A stretch of DNA of 64,000 bases, from the NCBI RefSeq assembly GCF_900110865.1, contig NZ_FOFD01000001.1, forward strand, positions 248,001 to 312,000, in the 5' to 3' direction. The stretch comes from Natrinema salaciae (GTDB taxonomy: Archaea; Halobacteriota; Halobacteria; Halobacteriales; Natrialbaceae). This document shows positions 8,199 to 42,878 of the stretch, one piece after another. Position 1 is the stretch's first letter. Every line of letters begins with the position of its first letter. The notes beneath the pieces were generated by a model. That model searched no databases, was not told where the DNA came from, and worked only from the letters and a program-made list of their open reading frames with translations. The position numbers were made by a program, and so were the translations under genes.

Positions 8199-8212
8199 GC
8201 CGAGTCACCAGG

Positions 8213-8631: not shown

Positions 8632-9255
8632 ACGCGCCCTTTCCGCCCCACCGCAAAAGGTGTGGTGGTTTGGTCCGTGTCGCGCCGCTTCATATCTGAT
8701 ATCACACACGTTCTACGACCGCCGCCGTCCGCGCTGCGGGTCGATTCGACGGGCGACCGCCCCGAACTGGGACGACGCGCTCACGATCACTCGTTGACGT
8801 ACCCTACCGGCGGTTGGCTGCCGATACGGGCCGTTCGGCGCTCCGTACTCGAGCGCGGGTCGACTGTTCGTTCGGCGTACTTTTCCGCCAGATCCGCGTG
8901 TCTGTGGAAAACCGACGATACAGCGGCACTAATCGAGGGTTCGTTTTCGAAGACGGAGCCAACGGGAGTCGGGCCGCGGGACGCGAGCCAACGATCGTCG
9001 GCGGCCAGCGGCTGAGTACCCGAGGGCTACAGCGTTCAGTAGTCCGTCTATAGTAATGGGTTCGGGAGGTTTGCATTCCGCTCATGGTTGCGTACCGTCC
9101 GCCATCTCGAACACCCGCTATGGATCAGCAGTACATCAGGCCGTGTCTCTCACCGCTCTCGGGGAACAGTCGAGCCGACGGCGCGTCGGCGGAAACCGAA
9201 ACCGTGACCGGGCCGCACGACCGCACCGAACGGCCCGCCGATCGGTGAGTAGCCG
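8632..9255. other. Intergenic region upstream of glmS
   Basis: No convincing gene. The open frames here are Arg/Ser-rich shadows. A TATA-like TCTATAGTA at about 9047-9055 points rightward and could start a glmS transcript with a leader of about 180 nt. Confidence 0.5.
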
Positions 9256-11067: not shown

Positions 11068-11460
11068 GCCGTCGACGGTCTCGGCAGGCGGCCGTTTGCG
11101 CCGTGAATCGCGACGAACCGGCGGCTATCGGGGTCGTGTAAAATTCTGGCACGAACGATCGGACCCGAGTAGGGGTCCTCGAGGCCGCAGGACGCGAGAC
11201 CACCCCCGTAGCCTCGTATCCGCACGGCATCGGTAGTGGCGACCCGTACTCGACCGATGTCGGAATCGAACGTGGAGGGTCACTGTGCGATCGAGTCGCG
11301 GAGACTTCGTCACCGGACTCGCGGGTATCGACCGATACCCTCCAGTTAGACTAGGTGTTCGACATAGTATAAAGGCCACACCTGATCACTACGGTATCTC
11401 GCCTCGTTGACTGGACCGGTCGCCGCTCGAGAGCGCGACACTCGTCGGACGGCGTCGCGG
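11068..11460. other. Convergent glmS/glmU intergenic region
   Basis: No gene seen. It contains a strong TATA-like element (AGTATAAAGG near 11366-11375) and a perfect hairpin at 11323-11340, although both flanking genes end here, so the promoter is an orphan. Confidence 0.5.
11323..11340 (-). other. Perfect hairpin near an orphan TATA box
   Basis: GGGTATCG and CGATACCC form an 8-bp inverted repeat with a 2-nt spacer. On the minus strand it lies about where transcription would start from the TATA-like element at 11366-11375, so it could be the 5' hairpin of a small RNA. It is not followed by the U-tract expected of an archaeal terminator. Confidence 0.35.
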
Positions 11461-22941: not shown

Positions 22942-24858
22942 TCAGTTGCTCCGATCGTCCTCGCGGTCGACCGTCCGCTCGCGGACCGTCATCCCCTTGC
23001 GACCGAGGTGCTGGAGCCGTCGCCGGGCGAAATCCTCCTCCCGCGTCCCCCGCGTCGCGAGGACGTAGACCAGCGCGCCGCCGGCCGGCCGCATGGTTCG
23101 CCCCGCTCGCTGGGTGCCCTGCCGTCGCGAGCCGCCAAGCCCGGAGGCGACGATCGCCAGATCCGCGGTCGGCAGGTCGATCCCCTCGTCGCCGACGCGA
23201 GAGATGAGCAACAGATCGCGTTCATCCCGCCGGAACTCCTCGAGCAGCCGTCGGCGCTCGTGGTGGGGTGTCTCGCCGCTGAGGAACGGGACGTCGAGGG
23301 CGTCGGAGAGCTCTCGACCCTGCTCCAGGTAGTCGACGAAGACGAGCGCCTTCGAATCGGGGTGGGCCGACAGCAGGTATCGCACCTCGTCGATCTTGCC
23401 CCGATTGCGGGCGGCGATCCGATACTTCTCCTGCCCGTCGGCCGAGCCGTAGGCGTTCGCCTGTTCGTCGTCGCCCCACGGCACGTACCGGATCTCGAGT
23501 TCGGGTTCGGCGACGTGCCCGGCGTCGAACAGGGCCTCCCAGTCGGTGCCGATCGGCGGGCCGACGAGGGTGAAGATCTCGGTCTGGCGGTCGTCTTCCC
23601 GGATGGGGCTGGCGCTGAGCCCCAGGCGGTGTTTGGACTGGAGGTGCGTACTCCGCCGGTACACGTCCGAGGGGACGTGCTGGCACTCGTCGAAGATCAC
23701 CAGCCCCCACTCGCGGTCGTCGAACAGCGACCGGTGCCGGTCCATGCCGGCGATCTGGTACGTGGCGATCGTCACCGGCCGCACGTTCTTCTGCCCGCCG
23801 TGGTACTGGCCGATCTGGTGGGGCTCGAGCGAGGTGTACTCCGCGATCGCGTCGGCCCACTGTCCCGCGAGGTCGCGACTCGGCACTAGCACGAGGGTCT
23901 CGCCCTCGACGTGGGCCATCGCACCGGTCGCGGCGACCGTCTTCCCGCTGCCCGGCGGCCCGACGAAGACGCCCTCGCCGGCCTCGGCGAAGCGATCGAC
24001 CCAGGTCCGCTGGTAGTCCCGCAGGCTGACCCGCAGGTCGATCGGTAGTTCCTCCCCGGACTCGAGTTCGCGGTGGTCCTGGACCGGATAGCCGGCCTCG
24101 TAGAGGAGCCGCTTGATCGCGGCCTCCGCCCCCTCCCGAACCCAGTCTTCGGTCTCGGAGATCGGCGCGTGGACGTGTTCCTCGTCGAGTTTCTGCCGGG
24201 CGACGTTCCCCATGATTTCCGGGCTCTGGGCCTCGAGCACGGTGTAGCCGTCCTCGTGAGTGACGAGCCGGAACTGGTGGGCGCGCTCCCACTGGCTCTG
24301 GACCCAGTCCTCGAGCGCGTCGGAGCGCTGGCCCAGCGCCTGCCGCATCGTCCGCGCGAGGTCGTCGACGGAGTCGTGTGGCGTCCCCCAGACGTCCGCC
24401 GGTCGGACGACGTAGCGGTAGCCCTGCTCGCCGTTGGCGTCGGCGAGGTGCGCGAACTGCGAGAGCTGCGCGCGGGTGAACTGGTCGGGTCGATCGACGA
24501 CGATCTCCCGTCGCTTCGGGAAGACGACCACCCGCTCGCGGTCGGTGAGGTCCTCGAGTTCGGCGGGGTACCAGACCACGGGATCGGTCGAGACGGCGTG
24601 GCGCTCGAGGTCGCCGCGCTCGGCGAGGGCCTCGAGCCGCTCGGTCGCCTCCTCGTGGGAGAGCTCGAGGGCGCGGGAGACGGCCGCGGCGGTCAGCACC
24701 GGCCGCCCCTCCCGCTGGCTGGCGTCGTGGAAGTCGGCGATCGTGAACGCGTCGTCGGCGGTCGCTTCGCCGCGGTCGCCCGCCTCGCCGGCGTCGGCCG
24801 ACTCCGGTGGTCGGCTCCGCTGTTCGTCGGAGGATGTCGAAGAACGGTCGTCGGTCAC
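22942..24858 (-). CDS. rad25: XPB/Rad25-type DNA repair helicase
   Basis: A 638-residue superfamily 2 helicase. An acidic N-terminal extension with a winged-helix-like segment (residues about 40-95) precedes a region resembling the XPB damage-recognition domain. Then come LRDYQRTWVDRF, Walker A GPPGSGKT (300-307), VIFDECQHVPSD (a DEAH-box variant), GLSASPIRED, and the C-terminal motifs KALVFVDYLEQG and GTQRAGRTMRP. XPB unwinds DNA in nucleotide excision repair and transcription. The start is GTG 24858. Confidence 0.92.
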   Translation of the reverse strand: MTDDRSSTSSDEQRSRPPESADAGEAGDRGEATADDAFTIADFHDASQREGRPVLTAAAVSRALELSHEEATERLEALAERGDLERHAVSTDPVVWYPAELEDLTDRERVVVFPKRREIVVDRPDQFTRAQLSQFAHLADANGEQGYRYVVRPADVWGTPHDSVDDLARTMRQALGQRSDALEDWVQSQWERAHQFRLVTHEDGYTVLEAQSPEIMGNVARQKLDEEHVHAPISETEDWVREGAEAAIKRLLYEAGYPVQDHRELESGEELPIDLRVSLRDYQRTWVDRFAEAGEGVFVGPPGSGKTVAATGAMAHVEGETLVLVPSRDLAGQWADAIAEYTSLEPHQIGQYHGGQKNVRPVTIATYQIAGMDRHRSLFDDREWGLVIFDECQHVPSDVYRRSTHLQSKHRLGLSASPIREDDRQTEIFTLVGPPIGTDWEALFDAGHVAEPELEIRYVPWGDDEQANAYGSADGQEKYRIAARNRGKIDEVRYLLSAHPDSKALVFVDYLEQGRELSDALDVPFLSGETPHHERRRLLEEFRRDERDLLLISRVGDEGIDLPTADLAIVASGLGGSRRQGTQRAGRTMRPAGGALVYVLATRGTREEDFARRRLQHLGRKGMTVRERTVDREDDRSN

Positions 24859-25004
24859 TGCCGAGTCGTAACGGGGGTGCGGGTAAACCGATTTCGTTCG
24901 CCGTCAGCCGGCCGCTCGAATCCGGGTCCGCGCCCGGCGACCGAGCGGGGCCGTCCCCTCGCGTCCGGATAGCTATATTTGACTGGATCGCATGGCATTC
25001 CAGT

Positions 25005-25193
25005 ATGTACCGCGCAATCCTCCCGGAGGGACAGATCGAATGCGACCGGTACGACCACATCGAGAACGGCGTCGAGCTCTACGACGGTGACGACGAGTTC
25101 ATCGCGTTCGTCCCCTACGCGAACCTCCACGCGTTGGCAGACGAGAACCTCTACACCGGTGACTCCACCGAGGAGGAGCGGTCGATCATGTAG
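25005..25193 (+). CDS. Small conserved haloarchaeal hypothetical protein (62 aa)
   Basis: The protein MYRAILPEGQIECDRYDHIE and onward is acidic and ends ERSIM. A TATA-like AGCTATATTT (24971-24980) about 28 nt upstream fits a leaderless start at ATG 25005. Its stop overlaps the convergent TFB stop by 8 bp. It looks like a compact beta-rich domain; function unknown. Confidence 0.72.
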   Translation: MYRAILPEGQIECDRYDHIENGVELYDGDDEFIAFVPYANLHALADENLYTGDSTEEERSIM

Positions 25194-26145
25194 CAGGCTG
25201 CTGATCGATCGCCTCGAGCTGCTCGCGGTACCGGTTTCGGACGGTGACGACGGTCGTCTGTGCGGTATCGGCGACGGCTCGCTGCGGGATCGTCTCGTCG
25301 CAGAGCAGTCCGGCGGCGTAGATGGCGGCGGCGGCGAACCCGGTCGGTGACTTGCCCGAGTGCAGTCCCTGCTCGGTCGTCCGATCGATGATCTCGATGG
25401 CCTTGGTCTCGACGTCCTTGTCGACGTCCAGTTCCGAACAGAAGCGCGGGACGAACTGCCGGGGATTCGTCGGCTCCAGGTTGATGTCCAGTTCGTCCGC
25501 GATGTATCGGTACGTCCGCCCGATCTCGCGCTGATCGACGCGCGAAACGGACGTCACTTCCTCGAGACTGCGGGGAATATCCTCCTTCCGGCACGCGGTG
25601 TAGAGGGCGCTGGTCGCGACGCCCTCGATCGATCGGCCGCGGATGAGGTCCCGCTCGAGCGCCTGTCGGTAGATGACGCTCGCGGTCTCCTTGACCGGCT
25701 TGGGGACGCCGAGCGCGCTCACCATCCGGTCGATCTCGGAGAGGGCGTACTTGAGGTTGCGTTCGCCCGCGTTTTTCGTCCGGATTCGTTCCTGCCAGAC
25801 GCGAAGTCGATGGAGCTGGCCGTGTTTGTCGGCCGACATCGAGTGGCCGTTGGCATCCTTGTTGCGCCAGTCGATAGTCGTCGTCAGCCCCCGGTCGTGC
25901 ATCGACTGGGTCAGCGGCGCACCGACGCGGGACAGCTCGTCGTGCTCTTGTGCGTTGAAGGCCCGCCATTCCGGTCCGTAATCGATGGGCTCTTCGGTAA
26001 GGACGAGCCCACACTCTTCACAGACCTGTTCACCGCGGTCCGGGTCGTGGACGATCGTGTCAGTCTCGCAGTCGGGACACAGATCAGCGTCAACCTCCTC
26101 CGACTGTGATTCGCTGCTGTGTTGATCGATTATAGACCGCGTCAT
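25186..26145 (-). CDS. tfb: Transcription initiation factor IIB (TFB)
   Basis: A 319-residue TFB with an N-terminal zinc ribbon (LCPDCETDTIV and VCEECGLVL), the B-finger/reader region (YGPEWRAFNAQEHDELSRVGAPLT) and two cyclin folds (from about residues 115 and 215). TFB bridges TBP-promoter DNA and RNA polymerase and reads the BRE. Haloarchaea carry several TFBs that serve different promoter sets. A TATA-like CCCTTACAG about 30 nt upstream suggests a leaderless mRNA. Whether this one serves the nearby glycan promoters is unknown. Confidence 0.95.
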   Translation of the reverse strand: MTRSIIDQHSSESQSEEVDADLCPDCETDTIVHDPDRGEQVCEECGLVLTEEPIDYGPEWRAFNAQEHDELSRVGAPLTQSMHDRGLTTTIDWRNKDANGHSMSADKHGQLHRLRVWQERIRTKNAGERNLKYALSEIDRMVSALGVPKPVKETASVIYRQALERDLIRGRSIEGVATSALYTACRKEDIPRSLEEVTSVSRVDQREIGRTYRYIADELDINLEPTNPRQFVPRFCSELDVDKDVETKAIEIIDRTTEQGLHSGKSPTGFAAAAIYAAGLLCDETIPQRAVADTAQTTVVTVRNRYREQLEAIDQQPAT

Positions 26146-26817
26146 CAGTACCGGAGGAAGTCATGCCGTCACTGTAAGGGGTTCACATGGTTTCGCGGGA
26201 AACTCCGACTTACTACCTCGCCGATAGCCAGTCAGTGGACCGATACGTCGGACCGATCGCGGCCCACAGCCGACCCTGCTGCCGTCGGCCGAAGCGAGAA
26301 GGTAGACGAACGACGCGACCGCCGGCTGCCTCGAGCGAACAGACCCGTCGGTCGCGTCGAGACCGTGTCCCATCGGTCGTGTCCGGGTCAAACGACCGCC
26401 GCTCGGTCGTTCCGACCCAGAATGACAAATGTGCACATGGGACATGAATCGCGGTGATCGTTGCGGCGAATCGCCGACGTAAATCACTCGTTCATCGCGT
26501 AAATCAGTCGTTCGTGTGTGAACTGCCGCTTATATTTATATCGGTTGGATCGAACGTTCAGTACGACCGCCGTGTCGTTATCCAGTCAACCAACTCGAAC
26601 TCGGGGCTCGCCGCGCTCCGGACCGCCCTCCCGTACGCCGTCGATATATCCCGACAATCGACTGATACCGATCGGACTCGAGGCCGGACGCGAGCGCCCG
26701 CTGCGACGGCGATCGGCCGCCGCCACGCGGCCGTCGAGAAGCCGTTCCGTACCCGCTTTGCAGACGGTGCGAAACGTGGTCGTGTTTAAGAGTATCTCTG
26801 TTGGTGTACAACTTGGT
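26146..26817. other. Long intergenic region with an orphan promoter-like element
   Basis: No convincing gene. It contains two 15-bp direct repeats (CGTAAATCA-N-TCGTTC, starting at 26478 and 26498) just upstream of a strong TATA-like CTTATATTTATAT (26529-26541), pointing rightward into about 250 nt without a good ORF before the next promoter. Confidence 0.5.
26478..26541 (+). promoter_or_regulatory. Direct-repeat operator plus TATA box, orphan
   Basis: Two CGTAAATCA-N-TCGTTC repeats with 20-bp period lie about 25-50 bp before a very AT-rich TATA-like sequence. This spacing is typical of a bound activator or repressor in front of a core promoter. The transcript would start near 26563 and has no obvious coding product. 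Confidence 0.45.
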
Positions 26818-26952
26818 GTGTCAATCGTGATTTCGACTCGCCGTTCGAACGTACAGCGGTCGCCGTCGAGCCGATGCTCCGGTGGTACGGGGTATCGATT
26901 CAGGGGCGTGCCACGCTCGAATGGGGTCTCTACGACCGGAGGGTCCCGATAA
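26818..26952 (+). CDS. Putative leaderless upstream ORF (44 aa) of a DUF7344 gene
   Basis: GTG 26818 lies about 31 nt after the TATA-like GTTTAAGAG (26783-26791). The frame closes with TAA in a TAATG overlap with the DUF7344 start. The Ser/Arg-rich peptide has no domain; a regulatory uORF is the best reading. Confidence 0.3.
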   Translation: MSIVISTRRSNVQRSPSSRCSGGTGYRFRGVPRSNGVSTTGGSR

Positions 26953-27548
26953 TGTCCTCGATCGATACGTCGCTGCCCGACGAGATCGCCTCGGTCACCG
27001 ACGCCGACGAGGACGAACGTCTGTCGAAGGACGTCATTTTCGAGCTCTTAAAGAATCGCCGTCGCCGGGAAGTTCTCGCGTACTTGCTGGAAGCCGACGA
27101 AACGGTAACGCTCGGTGAACTGGCGGAACAGATCGCGGCCTGGGAGAACGACACCGAGGTCAACGCGCTCAGCTCCGACCAGCGCAAACGCGTCTACGTC
27201 GCCCTCTATCAGACCCATCTGCCGAAGATGGACGACGCCGGTATCGTCGAGTACGATCAGGACCGCGGGCTGATCTCGCTTTCGGACAACGCCGACCTCC
27301 TGATGATGTACCTCGATACGGATACCCACCGACAGGACCGGTGGGATCGGTGGTACGCCGCGCTCAGCGCCGTCGGCGCTGCCCTCCTCGGCGCGGCAGT
27401 TCTCGGCGTGCCGATGCTGTCGGCCATCCCACTCGCCGCGCTCGCGGGCGTCGTCGTCGCCGCTTTCTTCTGTCTCTCGACCGCACACGTCGTCCGAAAC
27501 CGTTCCCAGGAACGCAACGTCGACGGCAAACTGTCCCGAATCGAGTGA
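26952..27548 (+). CDS. DUF7344 regulator with C-terminal membrane anchor
   Basis: A 198-residue protein. The N-terminal DUF7344 winged-helix segment includes SKDVIFELLKNRRRREVLAYLLEADETVTLGELAEQIAAWEND and KRVYVALYQTHLPKMDDAGIVEYD. The C-terminal part has two hydrophobic helices (YAALSAVGAALLGAAVLGV and IPLAALAGVVVAAFFCL). DUF7344 proteins are ArsR-like haloarchaeal regulators, here presumably tethered to the membrane. Two paralogues lie at 55874 and 60030. ATG 26952 is the start giving the acidic MSSIDTSLPDE N-terminus. Confidence 0.82.
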   Translation: MSSIDTSLPDEIASVTDADEDERLSKDVIFELLKNRRRREVLAYLLEADETVTLGELAEQIAAWENDTEVNALSSDQRKRVYVALYQTHLPKMDDAGIVEYDQDRGLISLSDNADLLMMYLDTDTHRQDRWDRWYAALSAVGAALLGAAVLGVPMLSAIPLAALAGVVVAAFFCLSTAHVVRNRSQERNVDGKLSRIE

Positions 27549-28217: not shown

Positions 28218-29681
28218 ATGACTCTCGCTGCGCGTCTCACCTCGCGATTCAAGGCCGAGTTCCTCGGCCGAATCGTCGCGATGCTCTCGAGCGGCCTGTT
28301 GATGGTCTTGCTGGCACGGCTACTCGGCCCCGACGAGTACGGCCTGCTGTTTCTGGCCATCTCGGTCTTCACAGCGATCGGGATCTTCACCAAGCTCGGG
28401 ATCGCGAAGTCCGGGTCGCGCTACGTCGCGGAGTACAAGGAGAAAGACCCGGGACAACTGCCCCACATCTTCCGGACGTCGCTATCGTTCAATCTGGCGG
28501 CGATCGCGATCGTCGTCGCCGCCGTCGTCGTCGGTCACCGCGGTATCGCCGCCGTGCTCGACGAGCCCGGGCTGACGCCGTTTCTGTTGCTCGGTGCGCT
28601 GTACCTGATCTTCGAGGCGCTCTCGGCGTACGCTCGGCTGATGTTGCAGGGCCTCGAGGAGATCGAGACCGCCGCGACGCTGCACGCGATCAACCGCGGC
28701 TGCCGGCTCGTGTTCGCGGTCGGACTCGTGCTGCTCGGGTTCGGTGGAATCGGCGCGTTCGTCGGGTACATTCTGAGCCTCGCGATTACGGCCATTGGCG
28801 GACTGGTCGTGATCTACGTGCGGTTCTACCGGGAACACGAGGGATCGGCCGCGGCCGTCGACGGCCTCCGGCGCCGGATCGGGGAGTACTCGATCCCGCT
28901 GACCGCCACGAGTACGGCGAACGTGCTCGACAAACAGGTCGATACGATCCTCGTCGGCTACTTCATGACCCCGGTCGCCGTCTCCTACTACGTCCTCAGC
29001 AAGCAGATCGTCCAGTTCGTCGAGACGCCGGTCACCGCGCTCGGCTTCACGCTCTCGCCGACCTTCGGCGCACAGAAGGCCGACGGGAACGTCGAACGTG
29101 CCGCTCGTATCTACGAGACCGCGCTGACAAACTCGCTGCTCCTCTACATTCCCGTCGCGGCCGGCGTCATCCTCGTCGCCGAGCCGACCCTCGATCTGGT
29201 GTTCGGCGACGAGTACGCGGGAGCCGTCCCCGTCCTCCAGATTCTGGGCCTGTACGCGGTCCTGCAAGCGATCACGAAGATCACCAGTAACGGACTGGAC
29301 TTCCTCGGTCGCGCACGCGAACGCGCCATCGTCAAGGGCGTCACCGCCGGCCTGAACGTCGTCCTCAACGTGCTCCTCATTCCGACGATGGGCGTCGTTG
29401 GGGCCGCGGTGGCGACGGTGATCACGTACTCGCTGTACACGTTCGCGAACGTCTACATCATCCACCAGGAGTTCGAGCTTCGGATCGGGTACCTCGCCCG
29501 GCACATCTCCCGAACCGTCGCTGTCACGGGCGTGATGGCGATGGTCGTCTTCGCCACCGTCGACTTCGTCGACGGCTTCCTGTCGCTGGCGCTGGTCGTC
29601 GGCCTCGGCGTCGCCGTCTGGAGTTCGCTTTCGATTCTCACGGGACTGCTGGACATCAACCGACTCGCCGCAATGCTCTGA
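28218..29681 (+). CDS. Polysaccharide flippase (Wzx/MATE-like membrane protein)
   Basis: A 487-residue protein with about 14 hydrophobic segments and the oligosaccharide-flippase signature near the N-terminus (LLARLLGPDEYGLLFLAISVF) and YSIPLTATSTANVLDKQVD in the middle. It should move lipid-linked glycan across the membrane, or export polysaccharide. ATG 28218 is preceded by an AGGAG Shine-Dalgarno-like sequence at 28211-28215, unusual in a region of mostly leaderless genes. The next gene starts 3 bp after its stop, so they form an operon. Confidence 0.9.
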   Translation: MTLAARLTSRFKAEFLGRIVAMLSSGLLMVLLARLLGPDEYGLLFLAISVFTAIGIFTKLGIAKSGSRYVAEYKEKDPGQLPHIFRTSLSFNLAAIAIVVAAVVVGHRGIAAVLDEPGLTPFLLLGALYLIFEALSAYARLMLQGLEEIETAATLHAINRGCRLVFAVGLVLLGFGGIGAFVGYILSLAITAIGGLVVIYVRFYREHEGSAAAVDGLRRRIGEYSIPLTATSTANVLDKQVDTILVGYFMTPVAVSYYVLSKQIVQFVETPVTALGFTLSPTFGAQKADGNVERAARIYETALTNSLLLYIPVAAGVILVAEPTLDLVFGDEYAGAVPVLQILGLYAVLQAITKITSNGLDFLGRARERAIVKGVTAGLNVVLNVLLIPTMGVVGAAVATVITYSLYTFANVYIIHQEFELRIGYLARHISRTVAVTGVMAMVVFATVDFVDGFLSLALVVGLGVAVWSSLSILTGLLDINRLAAML

Positions 29682-29684: not shown

Positions 29685-31604
29685 ATGTCACAGACACCAC
29701 TCGAAACCGAGTTCGAACGATCCCGCGCCGCGGGGTCGGAACTGTTCGTCTGCCCGGACTGCTCGAGCCCGCTCTCCGTTCGCCCGCTCGAGTGTCGCCA
29801 CTGCGCGTTCGAGGGGCGGATTCGAAACGGCATCCTCTCGCTTCGCTCGGCCACGACGCCGCCCGACCGGTCGCGGCGCCCGTTCGATGCCGACCTGCTC
29901 GAGCCGATCGCGGTCCGGACCGAGCGGACGTCGATCCGGGACGCGACGGCCACGTTGCGCGAGGACGAGGCCGATCACTCGCAGCTGCTCTCGGCGCTGT
30001 ACGGGAGCGGACGCGACGCGTGGCGGACGTTTGCCGCCGAGGAGATCCGGGGGCGGTGTCTGGACGTCAACGCCGGGTTCGGCCGTCGATCCATGCTCCT
30101 GGCTGAACTCGCAGAGACGGTCTACGCCATCGAGCCGTCCCTGTCGTCGATCCGCATCGCGGCGGCCCGCGACGACTTCGAGAGCGGCGACCGCGTCGTC
30201 CCGATTCACACGACCGAGGATCGGCTGCCGTTCGCCGACGGCTCGTTCGACACGATCGTGGCCGACTTCACCGGTCGGCGGCCCCAGACGCTGGTTCCGC
30301 GGCTCGGTCTACTGGGCGACCTGCTCGCCGACGACGGGACGCTGCTCTTTCTGGCCGACGGTGCGACGACTCGGCTGGGACTGTCGGGCGGACTGGGTTC
30401 GTCGGCCGACGGACCGGCCTCGGGGCGCGACCTCCGCGGCGCGCTCCGCGGCACTCCCGACGGGTATCGGTCGCTGCTGTCCGCGGCCGGCCTCGCGTTC
30501 GACGACGTCGCCCTGTATTCGCTGTTCCCCACGGCGACGCGACCGCTGTACGTCTTCGACGTCGAGAGCGAGCACGCGGTCCGGAAGCTCTCCGAGATCG
30601 TGCTCGCGGAGCGCGGCCGCCTCGCGCAGGTCGCGAAGCCGTTCGTCTCGATCGGCGGGAAGACCGGCCTGCTCCGACGCGCCTACCCGAGCTACCTCGC
30701 GGTCTGCCGCAGTAGCGCCGACGCGTCGCCGGCACCGTTCGACGCGTCGGATCCGCTGCTGATTTCGGGTCGCTCGCGGTCCGTCGTGCTCGAGACCTCG
30801 AGCGACGGCGTCGACGGCGTGTGGAAGATTCCGAACCGGAACGACCACGTCTCGCTGACCGACAGGGAGCACTCGATCGTCGACCGGCTTCGGTCGAGCG
30901 ACGCGCCGATCGTGGAGACGTTGCCGGCGGGAACCACGGTCGAAACCGGGTTCGGGCCGGCCCGGCGCGAGGAACCCGTTCCGGGGACTCCGCTCGCGGC
31001 CGAGCTGGACGGCGATCTCGACTCGTTCGACCGCGTGCTCCGAATCGGGTTCGAGTGGCTGACCGAGTTCCAGCGACAGTTCGGCGGCGAATTCGTCGAG
31101 CGATCGCCGGCCGCCGTCCGCGACGAGCTCCGGTTCGAGCCGACCGGGATCGAGCCGCCGGCGGTGAACGAGCCCGTCGAGACGTTCGAGACACCCGTTC
31201 ACGGCGATTACCTCGCCGGAAACGTGCACGCACACGACGGCGAGGTGACGGGCGTCATCGACTGGGAGTACGGCGCGACCGACGCCTCGCCGATAATCGA
31301 CGCCGGGTTCTTCGCACTCGACACGGCGACGCGAACGTTCGACGACTTCGAAACCGGGTTCGAGCGCGTCTTCTGTGACGACACCGAGTACGCCGACCGT
31401 GCGCGATCGATCGTCCGGCAGTACTGCGACGACCTCGGGCTGCCGTATCGAACGTTCGAACTCTACCTGCCGAGCGTCTATCTCCACCGCCTCGAGTTGG
31501 ACTGGCGGTTCGGTGCCGCCAGTACCTACACGTCTCGAATGCACGAGCGAACGGCAGCCGTCGAGATCGTCTTCGACCGCCGGGAGTCGATCGACATCGC
31601 CTGA
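29685..31604 (+). CDS. Fusion: zinc ribbon - methyltransferase-like - APH-type kinase
   Basis: A 639-residue three-part protein. Residues 20-45 form a zinc ribbon (C23, C26, C37, C40). About 105-290 is a class I methyltransferase-like domain (RCLDVNAGFGRRSMLLAE as motif I, PFADGSFDTIVADF as motif IV/V), but motif I departs from the usual DxGxGxG. About 380-620 is an aminoglycoside-phosphotransferase-like kinase with VHGDYLAGNVHAHDG (HxD and Asn) and VIDWEYG (metal-binding Asp). It is in an operon with the flippase, so a lipid- or glycan-linked substrate is likely. Whether the methyltransferase half is active is uncertain. Confidence 0.75.
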   Translation: MSQTPLETEFERSRAAGSELFVCPDCSSPLSVRPLECRHCAFEGRIRNGILSLRSATTPPDRSRRPFDADLLEPIAVRTERTSIRDATATLREDEADHSQLLSALYGSGRDAWRTFAAEEIRGRCLDVNAGFGRRSMLLAELAETVYAIEPSLSSIRIAAARDDFESGDRVVPIHTTEDRLPFADGSFDTIVADFTGRRPQTLVPRLGLLGDLLADDGTLLFLADGATTRLGLSGGLGSSADGPASGRDLRGALRGTPDGYRSLLSAAGLAFDDVALYSLFPTATRPLYVFDVESEHAVRKLSEIVLAERGRLAQVAKPFVSIGGKTGLLRRAYPSYLAVCRSSADASPAPFDASDPLLISGRSRSVVLETSSDGVDGVWKIPNRNDHVSLTDREHSIVDRLRSSDAPIVETLPAGTTVETGFGPARREEPVPGTPLAAELDGDLDSFDRVLRIGFEWLTEFQRQFGGEFVERSPAAVRDELRFEPTGIEPPAVNEPVETFETPVHGDYLAGNVHAHDGEVTGVIDWEYGATDASPIIDAGFFALDTATRTFDDFETGFERVFCDDTEYADRARSIVRQYCDDLGLPYRTFELYLPSVYLHRLELDWRFGAASTYTSRMHERTAAVEIVFDRRESIDIA

Positions 31605-31841: not shown

Positions 31842-33896
31842 ATGGCACGCGACTTTCCGGTATCGGATGACGGTGATTCCCGTGATAACAGCGCTGAAAA
31901 CGCTGCTGACGGGAGTAATAGCTCATTACTCGACCGACGATCGTATCTGAAACTGGCCGGCACGGCGACGGTCGCGGCGACCGCCACCGGTGCTGCGAGC
32001 GCCGCCGGCGAGGAGTACGAAGTCATCGAAGCAGACAACAGCAATTACTTCCTCGACGACGGCGAGGTATTCGAAAACAAGATTATCGATTTCTCGAACG
32101 GGAACTGGTTTACCATCATCGCGAACGCGACGAACTGGACGATCCGGAACGTCGGATTCCGGGGCGTTCACGATCACGACCACAACGCGATCGTCGCTCG
32201 CGACGACTCCGGTGGAACGAGCACGATCGAGAACGTCTACCTCGGTGACGGCTGCGTTCGGCCGAGTACCTACAGCTCCCACGGGCAGTGTGGTATTTTC
32301 GTCCACCGCGACCACAGCGGCCACCTCGACATTCGCAACGTCTACACCGAAGACTGGCCGAACAACGGGATCTACGCCAGCGCGGCGGCCTACGACACGC
32401 CCGGGACGGTCACGATCGAGAACTGCTTCGGGAAGAACAACTACGTCGCCTCGCTTCGCGTCTCCGACGGCGGGAAGGTAATCGATAGCGTCGCGTACAA
32501 CGACGGGAACGGCCGATACACCGGTCGCCCGTTCTGGGGCTGGGGCGACCAGGAGGTCATCGGCTGTGACCTCGACGGCGGTCCGTACGCCGGCGGCGAC
32601 GCGATCTTCGGCCGCAGCGGCTCCAACACGTCCGTCGAGGACACTCGTCACACCGGCTACAACATGTCCGGCTCCGGAGGATACACCGAGGGCGCGAACG
32701 TCAGCACCAGCGGGACTCCCGACCACTCCGTCCCCGACGGCGTGCCGACCTCTCCCGAGGCGGCCGCAGGCGGCAGTTCGAACACCGACGTGCCCCCGCA
32801 GGACGAGTCGAGCGACGACACCGAGGAGCCGTCGCTCGCGAACACGATCGTCTTCGACGGGAACGGCACCGCCGACACCACGAGCTACGAGTTCGTCGTG
32901 AGCGAGGCGGTCGAGGCCAGCACCGACGAAGGTGCGACGATCGACGCGGCCGCGTCGGTCGACGGCGACCGCGCCAGCGGGACCGTCGCCGACTACCTCG
33001 ACGCGTTCCGCTTCGACGGCCAACTCGAGCGCCTGACGGTCGACGGCGACGCGACCGTCCGCGTCAACGGCGTCGAAATCGATCCCGACGACATCGACGA
33101 CGTGCTACAGGACGTCGTGCTCGTCGACGGGAGCCCCGAGGACGTGACTCGCTACGAATTCACCGTCAGCGGCGAGGCCGAGCGGAGCGGGTACGACGGC
33201 GCGTCGATCGACGACGAGGACGTCATCGAGGACGGGACCGTCCACGGCGTCGTCGCCGACTGGAAGGACGCCTTCCGCTACAGCGGCGAGATCGAGGAAA
33301 TGACCCTCGACGGCCCCGGAACCGTCTCCGTCAACGGTGAACAGGTCGACCCATCGGACTTCGGCGTCGATCTCCCCCACGAACTCGAGGTGCGAGGTCC
33401 CGGCGTCCCGGTCGGCTTCGAGATCACGGTCGACGGCACGATCGAGTTCGACGGCGACGATAGACCGGAAGACGAGGCGACGACGATCTCGGGCTCGACG
33501 GTGCAGAGCACCGTCACCAGCGACACCCTCCGGTTCCGGTTCTCCGGCGCGCTGACCGACATCACGATGACCGGCGGCAAGGCCACGGTGACGGTCGACG
33601 GCGAGGAGGTCGACCTCGACGAGTACGGCGACCCCGAGCTGCTCCGCCACGCGCTCGTGATCGACGGAACCGACGCCTCCGGTCCGAGCACGTACTCGTT
33701 CCGCGTGGACGGGAAGGTCATCAAGTCGGAGTACCGAGACGCGTCGATCGACGACGGGGACGTCCTCGAGGACACGACGGTCCGCGGCGGCGTCGGCGGC
33801 TGGCTCGACGCCTACTGGTTCGAGGGCGACGTCGAGGACTTCACGCTCCTCGGCGACGCGGCAGTCGACATCCAGTACAACGCGCGCAAACAGTGA
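31842..33896 (+). CDS. Secreted beta-helix protein with four C-terminal beta-rich repeats
   Basis: A 684-residue Tat substrate with DRRSYLKLAG and an Ala-rich signal ending near residue 55. Residues about 57-300 are a right-handed parallel beta-helix (motifs NWTIRNVGFRG, TSTIENVYLGDG, TVTIENCFGKN), homologous to the 34792-35742 protein. Then PDGVPTSPEAAAGG leads to four repeats of about 80-90 residues (near 333, 424, 512 and 601), each with a YEF/FEI-x-VSG-type strand and a (V/M)TLxGxxxVxVNG-like end. The product is very acidic. It may bind or cut polysaccharide at the cell surface; no catalytic residues are evident. Confidence 0.8.
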   Translation: MARDFPVSDDGDSRDNSAENAADGSNSSLLDRRSYLKLAGTATVAATATGAASAAGEEYEVIEADNSNYFLDDGEVFENKIIDFSNGNWFTIIANATNWTIRNVGFRGVHDHDHNAIVARDDSGGTSTIENVYLGDGCVRPSTYSSHGQCGIFVHRDHSGHLDIRNVYTEDWPNNGIYASAAAYDTPGTVTIENCFGKNNYVASLRVSDGGKVIDSVAYNDGNGRYTGRPFWGWGDQEVIGCDLDGGPYAGGDAIFGRSGSNTSVEDTRHTGYNMSGSGGYTEGANVSTSGTPDHSVPDGVPTSPEAAAGGSSNTDVPPQDESSDDTEEPSLANTIVFDGNGTADTTSYEFVVSEAVEASTDEGATIDAAASVDGDRASGTVADYLDAFRFDGQLERLTVDGDATVRVNGVEIDPDDIDDVLQDVVLVDGSPEDVTRYEFTVSGEAERSGYDGASIDDEDVIEDGTVHGVVADWKDAFRYSGEIEEMTLDGPGTVSVNGEQVDPSDFGVDLPHELEVRGPGVPVGFEITVDGTIEFDGDDRPEDEATTISGSTVQSTVTSDTLRFRFSGALTDITMTGGKATVTVDGEEVDLDEYGDPELLRHALVIDGTDASGPSTYSFRVDGKVIKSEYRDASIDDGDVLEDTTVRGGVGGWLDAYWFEGDVEDFTLLGDAAVDIQYNARKQ

Positions 33897-34791: not shown

Positions 34792-35742
34792 TTAGTTCTG
34801 CGAACCGGCCGCCGCTTCCTCGGGGCTGGTCGGGACGCCGTCGGGCATGAAGGCGTCGGGGTCGGTTCCGACGCCCTCGCCGAGTTGCACGGTCGAACCC
34901 GCGTGTTCGGCGATGCCGGCCTGTTCGTCGTAGTCGGTTTCCGTGACGACGACCTCCGTCGCGTTCCCGTTCGCACCGGCGTCGATGGCGGTGTTCTGGC
35001 CGTTCATCTCGATCTGGCAGCCCTCGACCTCGATCGTGCCGGGGGCCCACGCCCAGATACCGCGGCCGACGTAGCCCTCGCTGGCGTCGACGTAGACGCT
35101 GGAGTTCGTGACCTTGCTCCCCTCGGTACCCAGTCGGAAGTGCGAGACGTAACAGTTCGCGGCGAAGCTGCTGTCGATGTGGATCGTCCCGCCGCCCTTG
35201 TTGCCGGGCGCGGAGCCGTAGATCGCGTTGTCCGCGAAGTTCTGGATGTTGACGTTCTCGAAGTCGATGTGACCGTTGTGATCCGGGGCGACCCAGAACG
35301 CGGTCTGCCCGTGACCGTTCGGGTTGCCGTTGCCCGTGCTCGAGCCGTCGCCGAGATAGACGTTCTCGACGGTGCTGGTTCCGTTGCCCGTGTCGGAGAT
35401 TCCGAACGTGGCGGTGCCGGTCCCGGCGGTGTTCTTCCCCTTGAAGCCGATGTTTCGGATCGTCCAGTCGCTACTGTGAGCGGTGACGATGATGTCCTGA
35501 CCGGTCGTCATGTCGATGAGCTTGTTCTCCCAGGTTTCACCGGCGTCGAGGGAGATCGTCTGCCCCTCGGCTTCGATGACCTCGTAGTCGTCCTCGGCCG
35601 CTGCAGCGCCGGCGCCGCCGAGCGCGGTCGCAGCGGTCGCCACCGCGGCGAGCGAGCGAACGTAGTTTCGGCGGGTTAATCCGGTGTTGCGGCCTGTAGT
35701 CGGAGCGGATTCCGTCTCGGACGTACGGGGGTTCTGCGCCAT
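34792..35742 (-). CDS. Secreted beta-helix protein (short paralogue)
   Basis: A 316-residue Tat substrate (LTRRNYVRSLAAVATAATA signal) with a right-handed beta-helix domain: DWTIRNIGFKGKN, STVENVYLGDGSS, HIDFENVNIQNFADNAIYG. It ends at PDGVPTSPEEAAAGSQN, the same boundary where the 31842 protein continues into its repeats. ATG 35742 lies about 29 nt after a TATA-like AGTTTATGAG, so the mRNA is probably leaderless; ATG 35757 is also in frame. It probably acts at the cell surface on or beside glycan. Confidence 0.8.
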   Translation of the reverse strand: MAQNPRTSETESAPTTGRNTGLTRRNYVRSLAAVATAATALGGAGAAAAEDDYEVIEAEGQTISLDAGETWENKLIDMTTGQDIIVTAHSSDWTIRNIGFKGKNTAGTGTATFGISDTGNGTSTVENVYLGDGSSTGNGNPNGHGQTAFWVAPDHNGHIDFENVNIQNFADNAIYGSAPGNKGGGTIHIDSSFAANCYVSHFRLGTEGSKVTNSSVYVDASEGYVGRGIWAWAPGTIEVEGCQIEMNGQNTAIDAGANGNATEVVVTETDYDEQAGIAEHAGSTVQLGEGVGTDPDAFMPDGVPTSPEEAAAGSQN

Positions 35743-36315
35743 ACACTTGCGTAACATCGGCTTGTGCTCATAAACTTTTTCTTGCACTTGCGCTTTAAAT
35801 TTACAGACTATATTTCTAACACTACAAAAAAGGGCACAATCTATGCGAATTCATTCACGAATATACGAACGTGTCGGCGGCGAAGAGGCGGACCGTAATA
35901 CCGTATTTTCCGAGGAAACCAGGCAATATCGCGCGACGGAGCGCGTTCGACGCGCGATTCGACGCTGGTCGTCCACGCGCTCGAGCCAGGGGCGGAGCAC
36001 TGTTTCGACTCCGACAGCCACGTGTTTCCCCGCTCGTAATACGCTATTACCCGGCGGGACGGCGGCTCACCGCCCGACTTGGTTCCCGTCCTCGAGTGGG
36101 CGATTCGTGTGGCGTCTCTCCCGGGTATTTTGTCGGTGCCATCCGGACACGATTCGCGGTGGTGGCGCTTCGCGCGTTCGACCGTCCGCGGAACGCCAGA
36201 TCGATCCGAATTCGTGCGGACGAGCCGTCGAATCGGACGCGGTCGTCCGGCGACGAGCCGTTTCGACCGAAGCCGAACAAACGGTGCGACGCGAACGGCC
36301 GGGGCCGATCGGCGA
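35743..36315. other. Intergenic region with AT-rich promoter
   Basis: 35750-35830 is AT-rich and holds the leftward promoter of the short beta-helix gene. The rest shows no gene. Confidence 0.5.
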
Positions 36316-38106
36316 TCAGGCGTCGCTGACGGCGTACATCTCGAACTCGTCGTTCGAGATGACCTTGTTCGTGCCCCGGTCGGTATCGAGCCCCTCGAAC
36401 GCGGCTCGCCGGTAGTTCAGTTCCTTGTAGACGGCGAACTCCTTGGTCTTGTCCCACTCGGTGACGACGAAGTAGTACTCGTCGGTGGGATAGGCGCCGC
36501 TGTAGTTGCCGTCCGAGAACCGAGTGGCGTTGACCGTCCCGGTCGACGCCGACGCGCCGCCGATGGTATCACCGCCGCCGGAGATCCCGTTGATCCCGTG
36601 ATCGTACCGGTACGGATCGTATCCCATGCCCGCGTAGGGGGTCCCGTCGGCGCCGTGCTCCAACCCGTCTTCGTAGCCGCTCATCATCTCGGGCGTCACG
36701 TGCTGGCCCGGATTGTAGATCAGCGGCGACGCGAACACCGTCATCAGGCCCAGCACGAGACAGGTTCCGAGCACCAGCGCCGTGATCGCGTTCGCGCCGG
36801 GTCTCGAGATCGTCCGCGAGAGCCCGCCCGCGAGCTGTGCCAGCGCGACGCCGGCGAGGATCGTGATGAGCACGTAAATGAAGCCGATCTGTCGGAACGC
36901 CATCGTCGGGGTCCCGACGAAGTAGACCGCGAACAGGCCGCCGAGCGGAATGAGCCCGAGCGCCAGATAGTTGACGAGCGACCGGGCTTCACCGTCGAGA
37001 CTCGTCCGACCGAGCCAGAGCGCCAGTACGAACAGGCCGACGACGAGACCGATGATCGCCGCGTCGAGAAACAGCTTCACGAACAGTTCGCTGAGACTGC
37101 CGCCGATGTCGGTCAGCGACGTCCCCCGCTGGTTGACCTCGGTCCCGGCACCGATGTCCTGTGCGAGCAGGCCGTACACGAGCCCCGACGCGGCGTTCCT
37201 GAACCGTTCGTTGCCCAGCGCCCAGAGTCCGAACATTCCACCAAGTGTGATCGTGTGCGCGTACGTCGTCGGGTGCTCGAGCATCGGATGGTCGTCGAAC
37301 CGTCGACGGGCGAGGTACTGGACGCCGCTGATCGCGCCGACGAGGATGACGACGTTGAACATCTGCTGGGGGTGGACCAGCAGGAGCGCGAGCGCGGTCA
37401 GATAGACGAGCGCGCTGAACGGCGAGAGGCCGAGCGGGAGTCGCTCGGCCGTCGCCCGACGCCGGAGGTAGGCGACGATCGCGAAGACCACGGGCGGAAC
37501 GAGAAACAGCGCGTTCGAGTTGGTGTGGATGCCCATGAACGTCGCGATGTTGTTGACTGGCAACACCATCCAGGAGACGATCGCGGCGAGCCCGACCGCC
37601 GCGCCGCCGCCGGCCACGTCGCGGACGACCAGCGGAACGAAGAGCAGAAACGGAACGAAGAGGACGACCATCCCGATCAGGAGTCCGCGCTCGATCGGGA
37701 CCCCGCCGACGAAGTGGAGGACCGTCGCGATCGCGTGCAGCCCCGGATAGAACAGCTCGTGCGGGGCGGTTCCGCCGTTGACGATGTCCCGCGTCCAGCC
37801 GAGATGCGTGAGCGCGTCGCCCATTCCGGCGAACCGATAGTTCCGGATCACGGGGAGGCTCACGATGGCCGTGACCGTCGTCGCCCCCAGCGCGATTCCG
37901 AACACCTGCTGGCGGCCGCGACAGGAGAGCGATGTCCCGACCGCGATCGCGAGCGCGATCGCGAACCCGAGCCAGGTAGTCGTCGGCGGCCCGGCGTACG
38001 CCGACGCCTCGTAGGCGGTCGCCGGATTCGCCCTCGCCACCAGAATACCCGCTGCGAGCGCGAGAAATCCGATCGCGACCGTCACGTTGAGCGTCGATCG
38101 TCTCAT
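36316..38106 (-). CDS. Polytopic membrane protein of the glycan region
   Basis: A 596-residue integral membrane protein with about 12-13 hydrophobic helices and a C-terminal extracytoplasmic domain (about residues 470-596, with NATRF and NYSGA sequons). Motifs such as GDALTHLGWTRDIVNGG and FYPGLHAIATVLHFVGGVPIERG in the first loops resemble archaeal GT-C-like or polymerase-like proteins, but I cannot assign a family. Context favours glycan polymerisation or transfer. The ATG overlaps the stop of a 14-codon upstream ORF (ATGA), and a variant ATAACAAACC element lies 30 nt before that ORF. Confidence 0.75.
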   Translation of the reverse strand: MRRSTLNVTVAIGFLALAAGILVARANPATAYEASAYAGPPTTTWLGFAIALAIAVGTSLSCRGRQQVFGIALGATTVTAIVSLPVIRNYRFAGMGDALTHLGWTRDIVNGGTAPHELFYPGLHAIATVLHFVGGVPIERGLLIGMVVLFVPFLLFVPLVVRDVAGGGAAVGLAAIVSWMVLPVNNIATFMGIHTNSNALFLVPPVVFAIVAYLRRRATAERLPLGLSPFSALVYLTALALLLVHPQQMFNVVILVGAISGVQYLARRRFDDHPMLEHPTTYAHTITLGGMFGLWALGNERFRNAASGLVYGLLAQDIGAGTEVNQRGTSLTDIGGSLSELFVKLFLDAAIIGLVVGLFVLALWLGRTSLDGEARSLVNYLALGLIPLGGLFAVYFVGTPTMAFRQIGFIYVLITILAGVALAQLAGGLSRTISRPGANAITALVLGTCLVLGLMTVFASPLIYNPGQHVTPEMMSGYEDGLEHGADGTPYAGMGYDPYRYDHGINGISGGGDTIGGASASTGTVNATRFSDGNYSGAYPTDEYYFVVTEWDKTKEFAVYKELNYRRAAFEGLDTDRGTNKVISNDEFEMYAVSDA

Positions 38107-38469: not shown

Positions 38470-39777
38470 ATGTCATCGATCATCATCGACCGAATTGCAG
38501 TCGACGACGGAACCCTCGAGTGTTCGGTTCGGCCTTCGCCCGACCTCGAGCGGTTCTTCACGGACGAATCGTTCCGTACCAGTTACGACACGTCGATCGC
38601 GGACGTGCCGGAGGGTGTGCTCGCGATCCCCGTCCTCGCGCAGGTCTGTCCGGTCGCGTGGGCCAACGGGGCCGACGTCTACGTCGACGAGGTCGACGCG
38701 ACGTTCGCTCGGGCGCTCGAGGACGTGAAAGCGTCGCTGTGCGAGATGCACGACTTCCTCGAGGGGGGGACACTCTACGCGCGGCGGACGATCGAGCCCG
38801 AGCCCGAGCCGAGCGACGAGAGCGGATTGCTCTTTACCGGCGGCGTCGACTCGACGTGTTCGTACGTCCGCCACCGCGAGGAGTCGCCGGCGCTGGTCAG
38901 CATCCGGGGCTGGACGATCAGCCCGGACCCCGCCGACGACGAGAAGTGGGACGCCCTCAGGACGCGCGTCGCCGACTTCGCCGACGACCACGGCTGCGAG
39001 ACCGAGTTCGTCGACTCGAACATGCTCTCGTTCCTCGATCACCCCATGCTGTTGGCCCACTACAAGCGCTACGTCGACGGCGGCTGGTACAGCTCCGTCG
39101 GCCACGGGCTGGGGCTGCTCGGCCTCTGCGCGCCCGCGGCCTACGCGCGCGGGATGGAAGACCTCTACGTCGCCGCGACTCACTGGGAGGGGATCGACCT
39201 CGAGTGGGGGTCCCGCCCCGATATCGACGAGCACGTCCGGTGGGCCGGCACGCGGTGTCACCACGACGCCTACGAACTCACTCGCCAGGAGCGCCTCGAC
39301 GTCATCGCCGACTACGTCCGCAGCGAGGACCCGACGCTCCAGCTCCAGACCTGTAACGACCAGATGGCGGGCAACTGCGGCGAATGTGAAAAGTGTTACC
39401 GCACTGCAGTCGGGCTCCGCCTCTCGGGGCTCGAGCCGGCCGAGCACGGCTATCCGTTCTCGGACGCGGACTACCCGCGACTCCGGCGCTCGCTCGAGCG
39501 CGGCGACTGGGTCCTCGGGCAAGACGAGCGCTACATGTGGGCGGACATCCGCGATCGCGCTCGCCGGACGGAGCCGGCCACGCCGGCCGAACGGACGTTC
39601 TTCGAGTGGCTCGAGGCCGCGGATCTGGACGAGCTCATCTCCGCGTCGGCGCCGCCGCTCAGCCATCGCCTCCTCCGGGCCGGCGCGAGAAACGCCCCCA
39701 CGACCGTCTACAACGTCGCTTACCCGGCCTGGATCACGGCGAAGGCCGGCCTTCGTCGCGTGCGCTCCGATCGCTAG
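38470..39777 (+). CDS. PP-loop ATPase (QueC/asparagine-synthase-like fold) with zinc cluster
   Basis: A 435-residue protein. After an N-terminal domain of about 115 residues comes the PP-loop LLFTGGVDSTCS (120-131), which binds ATP in N-type ATP pyrophosphatases. A C-terminal motif TCNDQMAGNCGECEKCYRT (about 293-312) resembles the zinc site of QueC-like enzymes. These enzymes adenylate a carboxyl or similar group and replace it with a nitrogen or sulfur nucleophile. In this glycan context it might amidate a sugar acid, but that is inference. It is not linked to queuosine/archaeosine genes here. Confidence 0.78.
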   Translation: MSSIIIDRIAVDDGTLECSVRPSPDLERFFTDESFRTSYDTSIADVPEGVLAIPVLAQVCPVAWANGADVYVDEVDATFARALEDVKASLCEMHDFLEGGTLYARRTIEPEPEPSDESGLLFTGGVDSTCSYVRHREESPALVSIRGWTISPDPADDEKWDALRTRVADFADDHGCETEFVDSNMLSFLDHPMLLAHYKRYVDGGWYSSVGHGLGLLGLCAPAAYARGMEDLYVAATHWEGIDLEWGSRPDIDEHVRWAGTRCHHDAYELTRQERLDVIADYVRSEDPTLQLQTCNDQMAGNCGECEKCYRTAVGLRLSGLEPAEHGYPFSDADYPRLRRSLERGDWVLGQDERYMWADIRDRARRTEPATPAERTFFEWLEAADLDELISASAPPLSHRLLRAGARNAPTTVYNVAYPAWITAKAGLRRVRSDR

Positions 39778-41285: not shown

Positions 41286-42878
41286 TTACTCCATGTAGCC
41301 GAGCCCCTTCAGCCGATCTTCGACGTCGTCGAAGTCCTCGTCCACCGTCTCGCTGTTCTCGATCTGCGTGACCGACGTGCGCTCGACCTTGGTCTCCGCG
41401 GGCGTCCCCGCCTCGTCGAAGGCGTCGAACAGCACGCGCCCGTCGGCGTTTTCCGGCACCGGTTCGCCGATCCCGTGAAGCAGGGTCGGGGCGATATCGA
41501 CCACTCGAGCGCCCCGCAGCGTCGCGCCGGGCGCGACCGAGGGGCCGCGACAGAGGACGATCCCCTCGCTGCGGTGGCTCGCGTCGTACGTTCCGGTGTC
41601 GCCGAGCACCGTGTCCGACATCCCGCTTCGGGACTCGTACGCCCCCCGCCCGCCGACGACCAGGTCCGGCGACCGGTCGTCCGTCGGGAACAGGTCGTCC
41701 CCGTCGTGAACCTCGAGCAGCGGGTCGCCGTCCTCGCCGGTCGCCGACTCGAACGTGGCTCTGATATCGGCCTTTACCTGCGGCAGTTCGCTCGGCGAGA
41801 CGACGCCGTTGTCGAAGCGCTCGGTGTCGTTGATGTAGCAGTTGCCCGTGTCGTGAACGAACGCGACGGTACGGTCGTAGTCCACGTCGTAGAGGGAGTG
41901 ATCGCCGGGAATCTGTTCGGCGACCGAGTCGACCAGTCGACGAGGCAGCGACTGGACGAGGGTCTCTTCGGTGATCCCGACGCGATTGAGTGCGCCCGTG
42001 ATGGAGTCCCGGGAGATCCCGAGGCTCGCGAGCGCGCCGCGAGTGCCCTCGTCCTCGCGGCGGAACAGGTACCCCTCCTGCTCGAGGATGCGATTGACGT
42101 AGACGAGCTCCTCGATCGGACCGAAGCCGTGGTCGGAGACGACGTAGAGATCCGCGTCGTGGTCGTCCGTGTACTCGATGACCTCGCCGAGCACCTGGTC
42201 GAGTTTCTTGTAGTGGGCGAGCAGGCGGTCCCCGTCCCAGATGAGGTGCTGGAACCGGTCGGGCGCGGTGTAGACGAAGAAGAACAGCTGCCAGTCGTCG
42301 CCGGCGCGGTCCATCTGAATCCGCATCAGTTCGCGCCGTTTCGCGAGCATGTCGTCGACGGCAGCCTCGAAGTCGTCCAGTCGGTCGGCGTACTCGGGAT
42401 AGTCGAGGCTGATCTCGTAGTTCGGGATGCGGGATTCGATCTCGTCCTGGAGATCGGGCGGATGCGTGAACTCCCGATCCGTCGACGGCGTCATCATCCC
42501 CGTGACCATGGTGCCGTCGATCTCGCGGGCCGGATACGTCATCGGGACGTTGCCGACGTGGGCTGGCCCGAGCTGGTCCCAGAGGGCCGGCTGTGCGAGA
42601 TCCCGGCTCGTGTACATCTCGTGGCTGTATTCCGAAGACAGGTTCTGGAACCCGTATATTCCGTGTTTGTCCGGCCAGACGCCAGTCGCGATCGACGGCC
42701 ACGCAAGCGGCGTCGTCGGGGGGCGAGTGCTGTCGAGCGTTCCGGATGCGCCCTCCTCACGCATCCGGGCGATGTTCGGGAGTTCACCCTCGTCGCTCCA
42801 TTGCTCGATGAGTCTCCACGGCACGCCGTCGAGTCCGAGCACGAACGCTCGCTCGGAGGGAGTCGTAGATCCGCTCAT
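41286..42878 (-). CDS. Alkaline phosphatase superfamily protein (second copy)
   Basis: A 530-residue protein related to the 17206-18834 product. It has FVLGLDGVPW (metal Asp), STRPPTTPLAWPSIATGVWPD (nucleophile region), VVSDHGFGPIEE (metal Asp-His) and ends EDRLKGLGYME. No signal peptide is evident. It probably hydrolyses or transfers a phosphoester in glycan metabolism, but the substrate is unknown. An exact ATAACAAAGC element lies 56 nt upstream of the ATG, giving a predicted short leader of about 30 nt, unlike most members of this set. Confidence 0.82.
   Translation of the reverse strand: MSGSTTPSERAFVLGLDGVPWRLIEQWSDEGELPNIARMREEGASGTLDSTRPPTTPLAWPSIATGVWPDKHGIYGFQNLSSEYSHEMYTSRDLAQPALWDQLGPAHVGNVPMTYPAREIDGTMVTGMMTPSTDREFTHPPDLQDEIESRIPNYEISLDYPEYADRLDDFEAAVDDMLAKRRELMRIQMDRAGDDWQLFFFVYTAPDRFQHLIWDGDRLLAHYKKLDQVLGEVIEYTDDHDADLYVVSDHGFGPIEELVYVNRILEQEGYLFRREDEGTRGALASLGISRDSITGALNRVGITEETLVQSLPRRLVDSVAEQIPGDHSLYDVDYDRTVAFVHDTGNCYINDTERFDNGVVSPSELPQVKADIRATFESATGEDGDPLLEVHDGDDLFPTDDRSPDLVVGGRGAYESRSGMSDTVLGDTGTYDASHRSEGIVLCRGPSVAPGATLRGARVVDIAPTLLHGIGEPVPENADGRVLFDAFDEAGTPAETKVERTSVTQIENSETVDEDFDDVEDRLKGLGYME

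Follow-up and report, generated by a model that had tools for sequence, protein, structure and literature searches.

The window, a stretch of 64,000 nucleotides of the Natrinema salaciae genome, contains an open reading frame at 29685..31604 (+ strand, ATG start, 639 aa) whose product joins a Cys4 zinc ribbon, a class I SAM methyltransferase (MTase) domain and an APH-type kinase domain in one polypeptide, and which directly follows the gene of a Wzx/MOP-type flippase. The genome has one copy of this fusion gene. On the basis of sequence motifs, predicted folds, the recurrent pairing with a flippase gene and analogy with bacterial systems we consider it somewhat better than an even bet (about 55%) that the fusion protein phosphorylates a lipid-linked glycan before this glycan is flipped, working together with the neighbouring flippase, and that members with an intact MTase, such as this one, also methylate the product.

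The zinc ribbon lies at residues 23-40 (CPDC...CRHC; 29751..29804, + strand). Its cysteines are arranged as C23-x2-C26...C37-x2-C40 and the profile match is weak (E=0.04). A helical linker and the MTase domain follow at approximately residues 70-345 (29892..30719, + strand), as delimited with Pfam and VIA; residues 126-193 match Pfam Methyltransf_11 (PF08241) with E=2.8e-5 and 25.1 bits, the gathering score being 21.2. Motif I is found at residues 126-135 (LDVNAGFGRR), the acidic residue following strand 2 is E150, and residues 181-194 read LPFADGSFDTIVAD. An earlier note on this DNA had described motif I as degenerate. For the window protein this was overstated, since D127 and the GxG glycines G131 and G133 are kept and the first Gly alone is replaced, by Asn. 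Active enzymes commonly have motif I variants with another residue at the first Gly. Judged from its residues, the motif is the common D-h-x-x-G-x-G variant and not clearly degenerate.

The C-terminal kinase domain with an APH/choline-kinase fold extends over approximately residues 361-639 (30765..31601, + strand; Pfam, kinase-only model and VIA). Residues 362-563 match Pfam APH (PF01636) with E=1e-8 and 35.7 bits against a gathering score of 23.2. The putative active site consists of the beta3 lysine K381, H506-G507-D508 and N513 (HGDxxxxN), and D526-W527-E528 (the D-W-E Mg site).

The earlier note had set structure prediction beforehand as a check that could overturn its reading. In the predicted structures both the kinase and the MTase fold form: the AlphaFold2 model of the window protein, for which eight sequences were used, has a pLDDT of 86.2 and a pTM of 0.87, and a kinase-only model reaches a pLDDT of 90.6. 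The two-enzyme fold is a confident prediction. Profile match, catalytic residues and modelled fold all agree in placing the kinase in the APH-type phosphotransferase superfamily, and the MTase domain has, by its profile match, motif I and strand-2 acids, a predicted class I SAM fold for which SAM binding is predicted. For model residues 20-345 VIA ranked the rRNA methyltransferase RlmA(I) (1p91) first, with Z 15.4 and an rmsd of 6.6 across 230 residues; many other MTases came out nearly level with it (Z 13-15), among them phosphoethanolamine MTases at about 14. The kinase model matched APH(3'')-Id (Z 14.8), LicA (Z 14.1) and amicoumacin kinase (Z 13.1), and also resembled APH(3'), Mph and choline kinases, the VIA Z scores lying between 12 and 15 across APH, LicA, Mph and AmiN.

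The matches to LicA and choline kinases (Z 13-14) and to phosphoethanolamine MTases bring up the alternative that the two enzyme domains work on a soluble precursor, a sugar or a head group, giving for instance phosphocholine or an O-methyl sugar phosphate for later incorporation into the glycan. We regard this as quite improbable. These Z scores are tied with those of unrelated APH and MTase folds, a LicD phosphocholine transferase was sought in the genome and is absent, and the partner of the fusion is a flippase and not a nucleotidyltransferase, which points to a late step.

Homologues were searched in 391 genomes of the class. Full-length homologues with 25-55% identity and the same domain order are present in several families and many genera, some genomes carrying paralogues, so that the three-domain fusion is, by sequence comparison, far beyond chance. 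A close relative in Halomontanus rarus carries the public annotation 'phosphotransferase' only. With Pfam and the model, the alignment of 31 haloarchaeal members agrees with the 639-residue three-part fusion that had been noticed from the sequence. The kinase site, which had been called complete-looking, is borne out by the alignment as K381, H506, G507, D508, N513, D526, W527, E528 and D539 are invariant in 31/31 members. The four ribbon cysteines are retained in 18/31. Motif I of the MTase (the acid plus GxG) is kept in 20/31 and lost in 11/31 members, as counted by hand from the table, and losses occur also within flippase-linked clades (L047, L052, L056, L059, and L036). This difference suggests that phosphorylation is the constant and methylation the variable part of the family's activity.

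A second alternative follows from these counts, namely that the exported glycan is phosphorylated and that the MTase-like domain serves mainly as an acceptor-binding scaffold, its SAM residues being incidental in some members. The invariant kinase residues as opposed to the inconstant motif I, which is lost even in the flippase-linked L052, L056 and L059, favour this possibility, as do three Chloroflexota proteins (L083, L159, L160) with a clear APH domain and no Pfam-detectable MTase. The window protein, however, has D127, G131, G133 and E150, and the MTases of the two Verrucomicrobiota fusions described below and of the unfused versions are fully canonical, so methylation is probably ancestral. 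We hold a kinase-only function to be rather unlikely. The proposal of the earlier note, phospho/methyl modification of an exported glycan, is in keeping with the conserved kinase residues and the setting in glycan loci; methylation is not a constant of the family. While the observation in that note is confirmed, its interpretation is partly supported.

Unfused counterparts exist in a haloarchaeal genus as well (G022/G056; L042, L043), where overlapping genes encode a Zn-ribbon MTase of 347 and 346 aa, fully canonical in both, and an APH-like kinase of 320 and 314 aa; the pair in L042 is located at 9098-11100 and its kinase is weakly APH-like (E=4e-4). The wider archaeal phylum outside the class yielded single-domain matches only, and no relatives of the fusion were found in the viral contigs searched. 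On a contig binned as a Nitriliruptoraceae bacterium, which may be mis-binned, a haloarchaeal-like member of 498 aa is encoded (L070:1803-3299, SKSM01000302); it has no ribbon and is short of a large part of the MTase.

The flippase gene upstream of the fusion (28218..29681, + strand) encodes 487 aa with about 11 TM segments and matches Pfam Polysacc_synt_3 with E=2e-28. Only 3 bp separate its end from the ATG of the fusion. For the search for related loci a closer 10-member alignment was used, as a query with the single protein returned none. In 16/31 loci a flippase gene is the immediate upstream same-strand neighbour of the fusion (the window, G377, G043, G086, G370, G143, G045, G361, G278, G105, G046, G203, G107, G375, G054, and G344), a raw count over related and hence not independent loci without species-tree control. 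Eight loci show ATGA-type 4-bp overlaps of the two genes, and in G344 the gap amounts to about 640 bp. Furthermore, the flippase is arranged tail-to-tail to the fusion in G104 and G254 and lies downstream in G208. This adjacency is seen although a genome has only about seven flippase genes of this kind; the genome of the window has seven in 4.86 Mb.

Members with an adjacent flippase gene are spread over different branches of the fusion tree; the link noticed in the window is thus repeated in distinct haloarchaeal clades and also occurs in one bacterial phylum. Those flippases that neighbour clade-A fusions fall into a single subclade, which is largely congruent with the fusion tree; as de-duplication had removed most of the adjacency labels from the flippase tree and made its group statistics void, only the topology was used, read against the gene coordinates. 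In G020 the fusion is not adjacent to a flippase gene, yet a flippase of the clade-A-linked subclade is encoded 150 kb away.

Most homologues of the fusion are located in glycan loci. The earlier note had named homologues occurring solely outside such loci as evidence against its reading, and the search across archaea did not find this; only G100, located next to TyrRS and RIO1, and G213, located next to DUF5781 and a subtilase, have no evident glycan locus around them. Glycosyltransferase-like clusters are near the fusion in about a third of the loci. Downstream in the window, 31842..33896 (+ strand) encodes a secreted repeat protein with an RR/Tat-type signal and no Pfam match, whose relatives are annotated 'right-handed parallel beta-helix' and which we rank as an accessory component. 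Members of its BLAST cluster, the Tat-type beta-helix proteins, occur close to the fusion gene in 15/31 loci, and frequently more than one copy is present. In the 402-kb plasmid of H. rarus (L141) the same block is present, with genes annotated as flippase, phosphotransferase, beta-helix and DUF6541 proteins.

Several further features of the region were noted. The protein of 31842-33896 seems to have repeated C-terminal modules, and a related secreted protein with a Tat-like signal and no Pfam match is encoded at 34792-35787 (- strand). At 36316-38106 (- strand) a protein with about 11 TM segments is encoded, a remote DUF6541 relative that could be a glycan polymerase or a GT-C-like enzyme; it is near the fusion in 9/31 loci. 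The 435-aa product of 38470-39777 (+ strand) has a PP-loop-like motif (GGVDSTCSYV) and no Pfam match, and is conserved close to the fusion in L049, L055 and L059. A PDB sequence search with the neighbours 31842-33893, 36319-38106 and 38470-39774 gave nothing useful. Type I phosphodiesterases/nucleotide pyrophosphatases of the alkaline phosphatase superfamily are encoded at 17206-18834 and 41286-42878 (both - strand) in the same glycan region, and an 'alkaline phosphatase family' gene is also near the H. rarus plasmid copy. The upstream block at 22942-27548, comprising a helicase, a 62-aa ORF, a TFIIB paralogue and a DUF7344 protein, is largely common to L044, L055, L059 and the plasmid L141, which suggests that the whole block moves together.

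The gene content of the loci bears on a third alternative, in which an RlmA-like rRNA MTase, an aminoglycoside or macrolide phosphotransferase and an exporter would provide self-protection against an antibiotic. In structure the N-terminal part is indeed closest to RlmA(I), and the kinase is similar to APH and Mph enzymes. The transporter, however, is of the Polysacc_synt_3/Wzx type, the loci hold glycosyltransferases, polysaccharide deacetylases and beta-helix proteins instead of drug biosynthetic clusters, and the similarity to APH(3') or Mph is at the level of the fold, with 9-17% identity. We consider this explanation very improbable.

Counterparts of the fusion were also found in bacteria, in a genome sampling for bacterial and archaeal relatives that was even but partial. 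In a Verrucomicrobiia MAG (L073), two glycosyltransferases flank a Zn ribbon-MTase-APH protein of 674 aa, and its neighbours include Wzy_C and beta-helix proteins; in a second Verrucomicrobiota genome (L142) the 3' end of a gene for a 694-aa fusion overlaps a flippase gene (E=6e-66). Both proteins retain the four ribbon cysteines and have fully canonical MTases, and their kinases carry His or Gln instead of the Mg-binding Asn. They share about 20% identity with the window protein. For the ribbon-MTase part a BLASTP comparison gave 8e-9; common descent of this part is likely from the sequences and may extend to the whole fusion.

Among the Chloroflexota, 5/400 genomes gave profile matches. In L083, L159 and L160 an N-terminal part without Pfam MTase match precedes the APH kinase. 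The loci L159 and L160 contain flippases, GT2 and polysaccharide deacetylase domains, and the L083 gene lies beside a deacetylase-like ORF, as read from the sequence. In L157 (G1194; 6884-8818) a Zn-ribbon MTase and an APH kinase are encoded by unfused adjacent genes next to NDP-sugar epimerases and an ABC-2 transporter protein. Unfused adjacent MTase-kinase pairs hence occur in both Archaea and Bacteria, mostly in glycan loci. Two candidates were rejected: L158 (G1129) encodes a Zn-ribbon MTase with no kinase in the chain, and G1440, the sole candidate from the Pseudomonadota, was not confirmed as a fusion, the recovered ORF being on the strand opposite to the match. Near the L159 fusion, on the opposite strand, another protein with an APH domain is encoded (516 aa; L159:1691-3241), the N-terminal half of which is uncharacterised.

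The preferred reading, modification of a lipid-linked glycan ahead of flipping, can be put as follows. The cytoplasmic fusion protein would act on the glycan at the inner membrane face together with the neighbouring flippase. Its C-terminal APH-fold kinase would use ATP (or GTP) to phosphorylate a hydroxyl, either on the lipid-linked glycan or on its terminal sugar. In members with an intact SAM site the MTase domain would then methylate the phosphorylated sugar, possibly at the phosphate itself, which would give a methyl-phosphate product. The finished unit would subsequently be moved outward by the dedicated Wzx-type flippase. The zinc ribbon is probably a structural or docking element. Known MTase-kinases for (methyl-)phosphorylated surface glycans belong to a few bacterial O-antigens of ABC-transporter pathways; if our reading is true, this chemistry extends to flippase pathways in haloarchaea and bacterial phyla, and a terminal mark may gate glycan export there as well. 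Several observations speak against this reading: a limited literature search found no phosphorylated or methyl-phosphorylated haloarchaeal glycan, two members are placed away from evident glycan loci, motif I is lost in some members of the flippase-linked clades, the His-His pair of the WbdD phosphate site (see below) lacks a counterpart, and the two Verrucomicrobiota kinases have a replaced Mg-binding Asn.

A farther-reaching version is that a phosphate or methyl-phosphate mark on the lipid-linked glycan is required by the partner Wzx flippase and acts across domains as a 'flipping licence', the flippase counterpart of the terminal WbdD mark that is read by an ABC exporter. It would be the first case of a methyl-phosphate-type modification on an archaeal glycan. 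We offer this as a speculation that is unlikely to hold.

The fusion was finally compared with known systems. The 23S rRNA G745 methyltransferase RlmA(I) (1P91) has an N-terminal Zn ribbon followed by a class I MTase as in the window protein, but it has no kinase, acts on rRNA and shares 18% identity with the window protein; the RlmA model is not among the listed NCBIfam matches of the latter. The unfused pairs L042, L043 and L157 share the parts and their order with the fusion, distributed over two polypeptides; their loci contain sugar-nucleotide or glycan genes.

WbdD (E. coli O9a / K. pneumoniae O3; PDB 4AZS, 4AZT, 4AX8, 4AZW) phosphorylates and then methylates the terminal mannose, a mark needed for export (PMC3482155). 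The likeness to WbdD that had been suggested for the window protein holds as an analogy. Among the Foldseek matches listed WbdD alone spans both domains (526-546 columns, E about 2e-7, 12% identity), and both proteins have the MTase before the kinase; the superposition has an rmsd of 17 A, so the domain order is alike and the placement differs. WbdD is absent from the sequence-profile matches at E<=0.01 and from the listed structure matches of the kinase-only model, although a remote relation is possible. Its kinase is eukaryotic-protein-kinase-like, while that of the window model looks APH-like. The phosphate site of WbdD is formed by His132, His133 and Arg203 (PMC3482155), whereas the window protein has, by motif position, no His pair after strand 4 (TGRRPQ after residue 194); Arg286 near strand 6 is conserved in clade A. 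WbdD belongs to an ABC-transporter export locus and the fusion neighbours a Wzx/MOP flippase. Moreover, WbdD has a C-terminal coiled-coil ruler and WbdA recruitment region, whereas the window protein ends with the kinase, without a C-terminal extension, and the longest helix of its model has 22 residues. The lack of a coiled-coil ruler would fit a flippase pathway, in which no cytoplasmic terminator determines how long the chains become.

For the Klebsiella pneumoniae O7 terminator, which combines a different MTase with an AmiN-like (APH) kinase, phosphorylation followed by methylation has been proven in vitro (PMC11231755). The N-terminal portion of its ORF6 is a class I MTase followed by an amicoumacin-kinase-like kinase, as in the window protein, and acts on an exported glycan (PMC11231755). 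ORF6 also has a CBM, a coiled coil that serves as molecular ruler, and GT2 modules at its C-terminus, all absent from the 639-aa window protein; the pathway is of the ABC-transporter type and the passages compared mention no Zn ribbon. As defining features of WbdD and of the O7 terminator that were tested are lacking in the fusion, it is not assigned to either. The O7 terminator, which the earlier note did not name, is a closer analogue than WbdD, since its proven kinase is APH-like.
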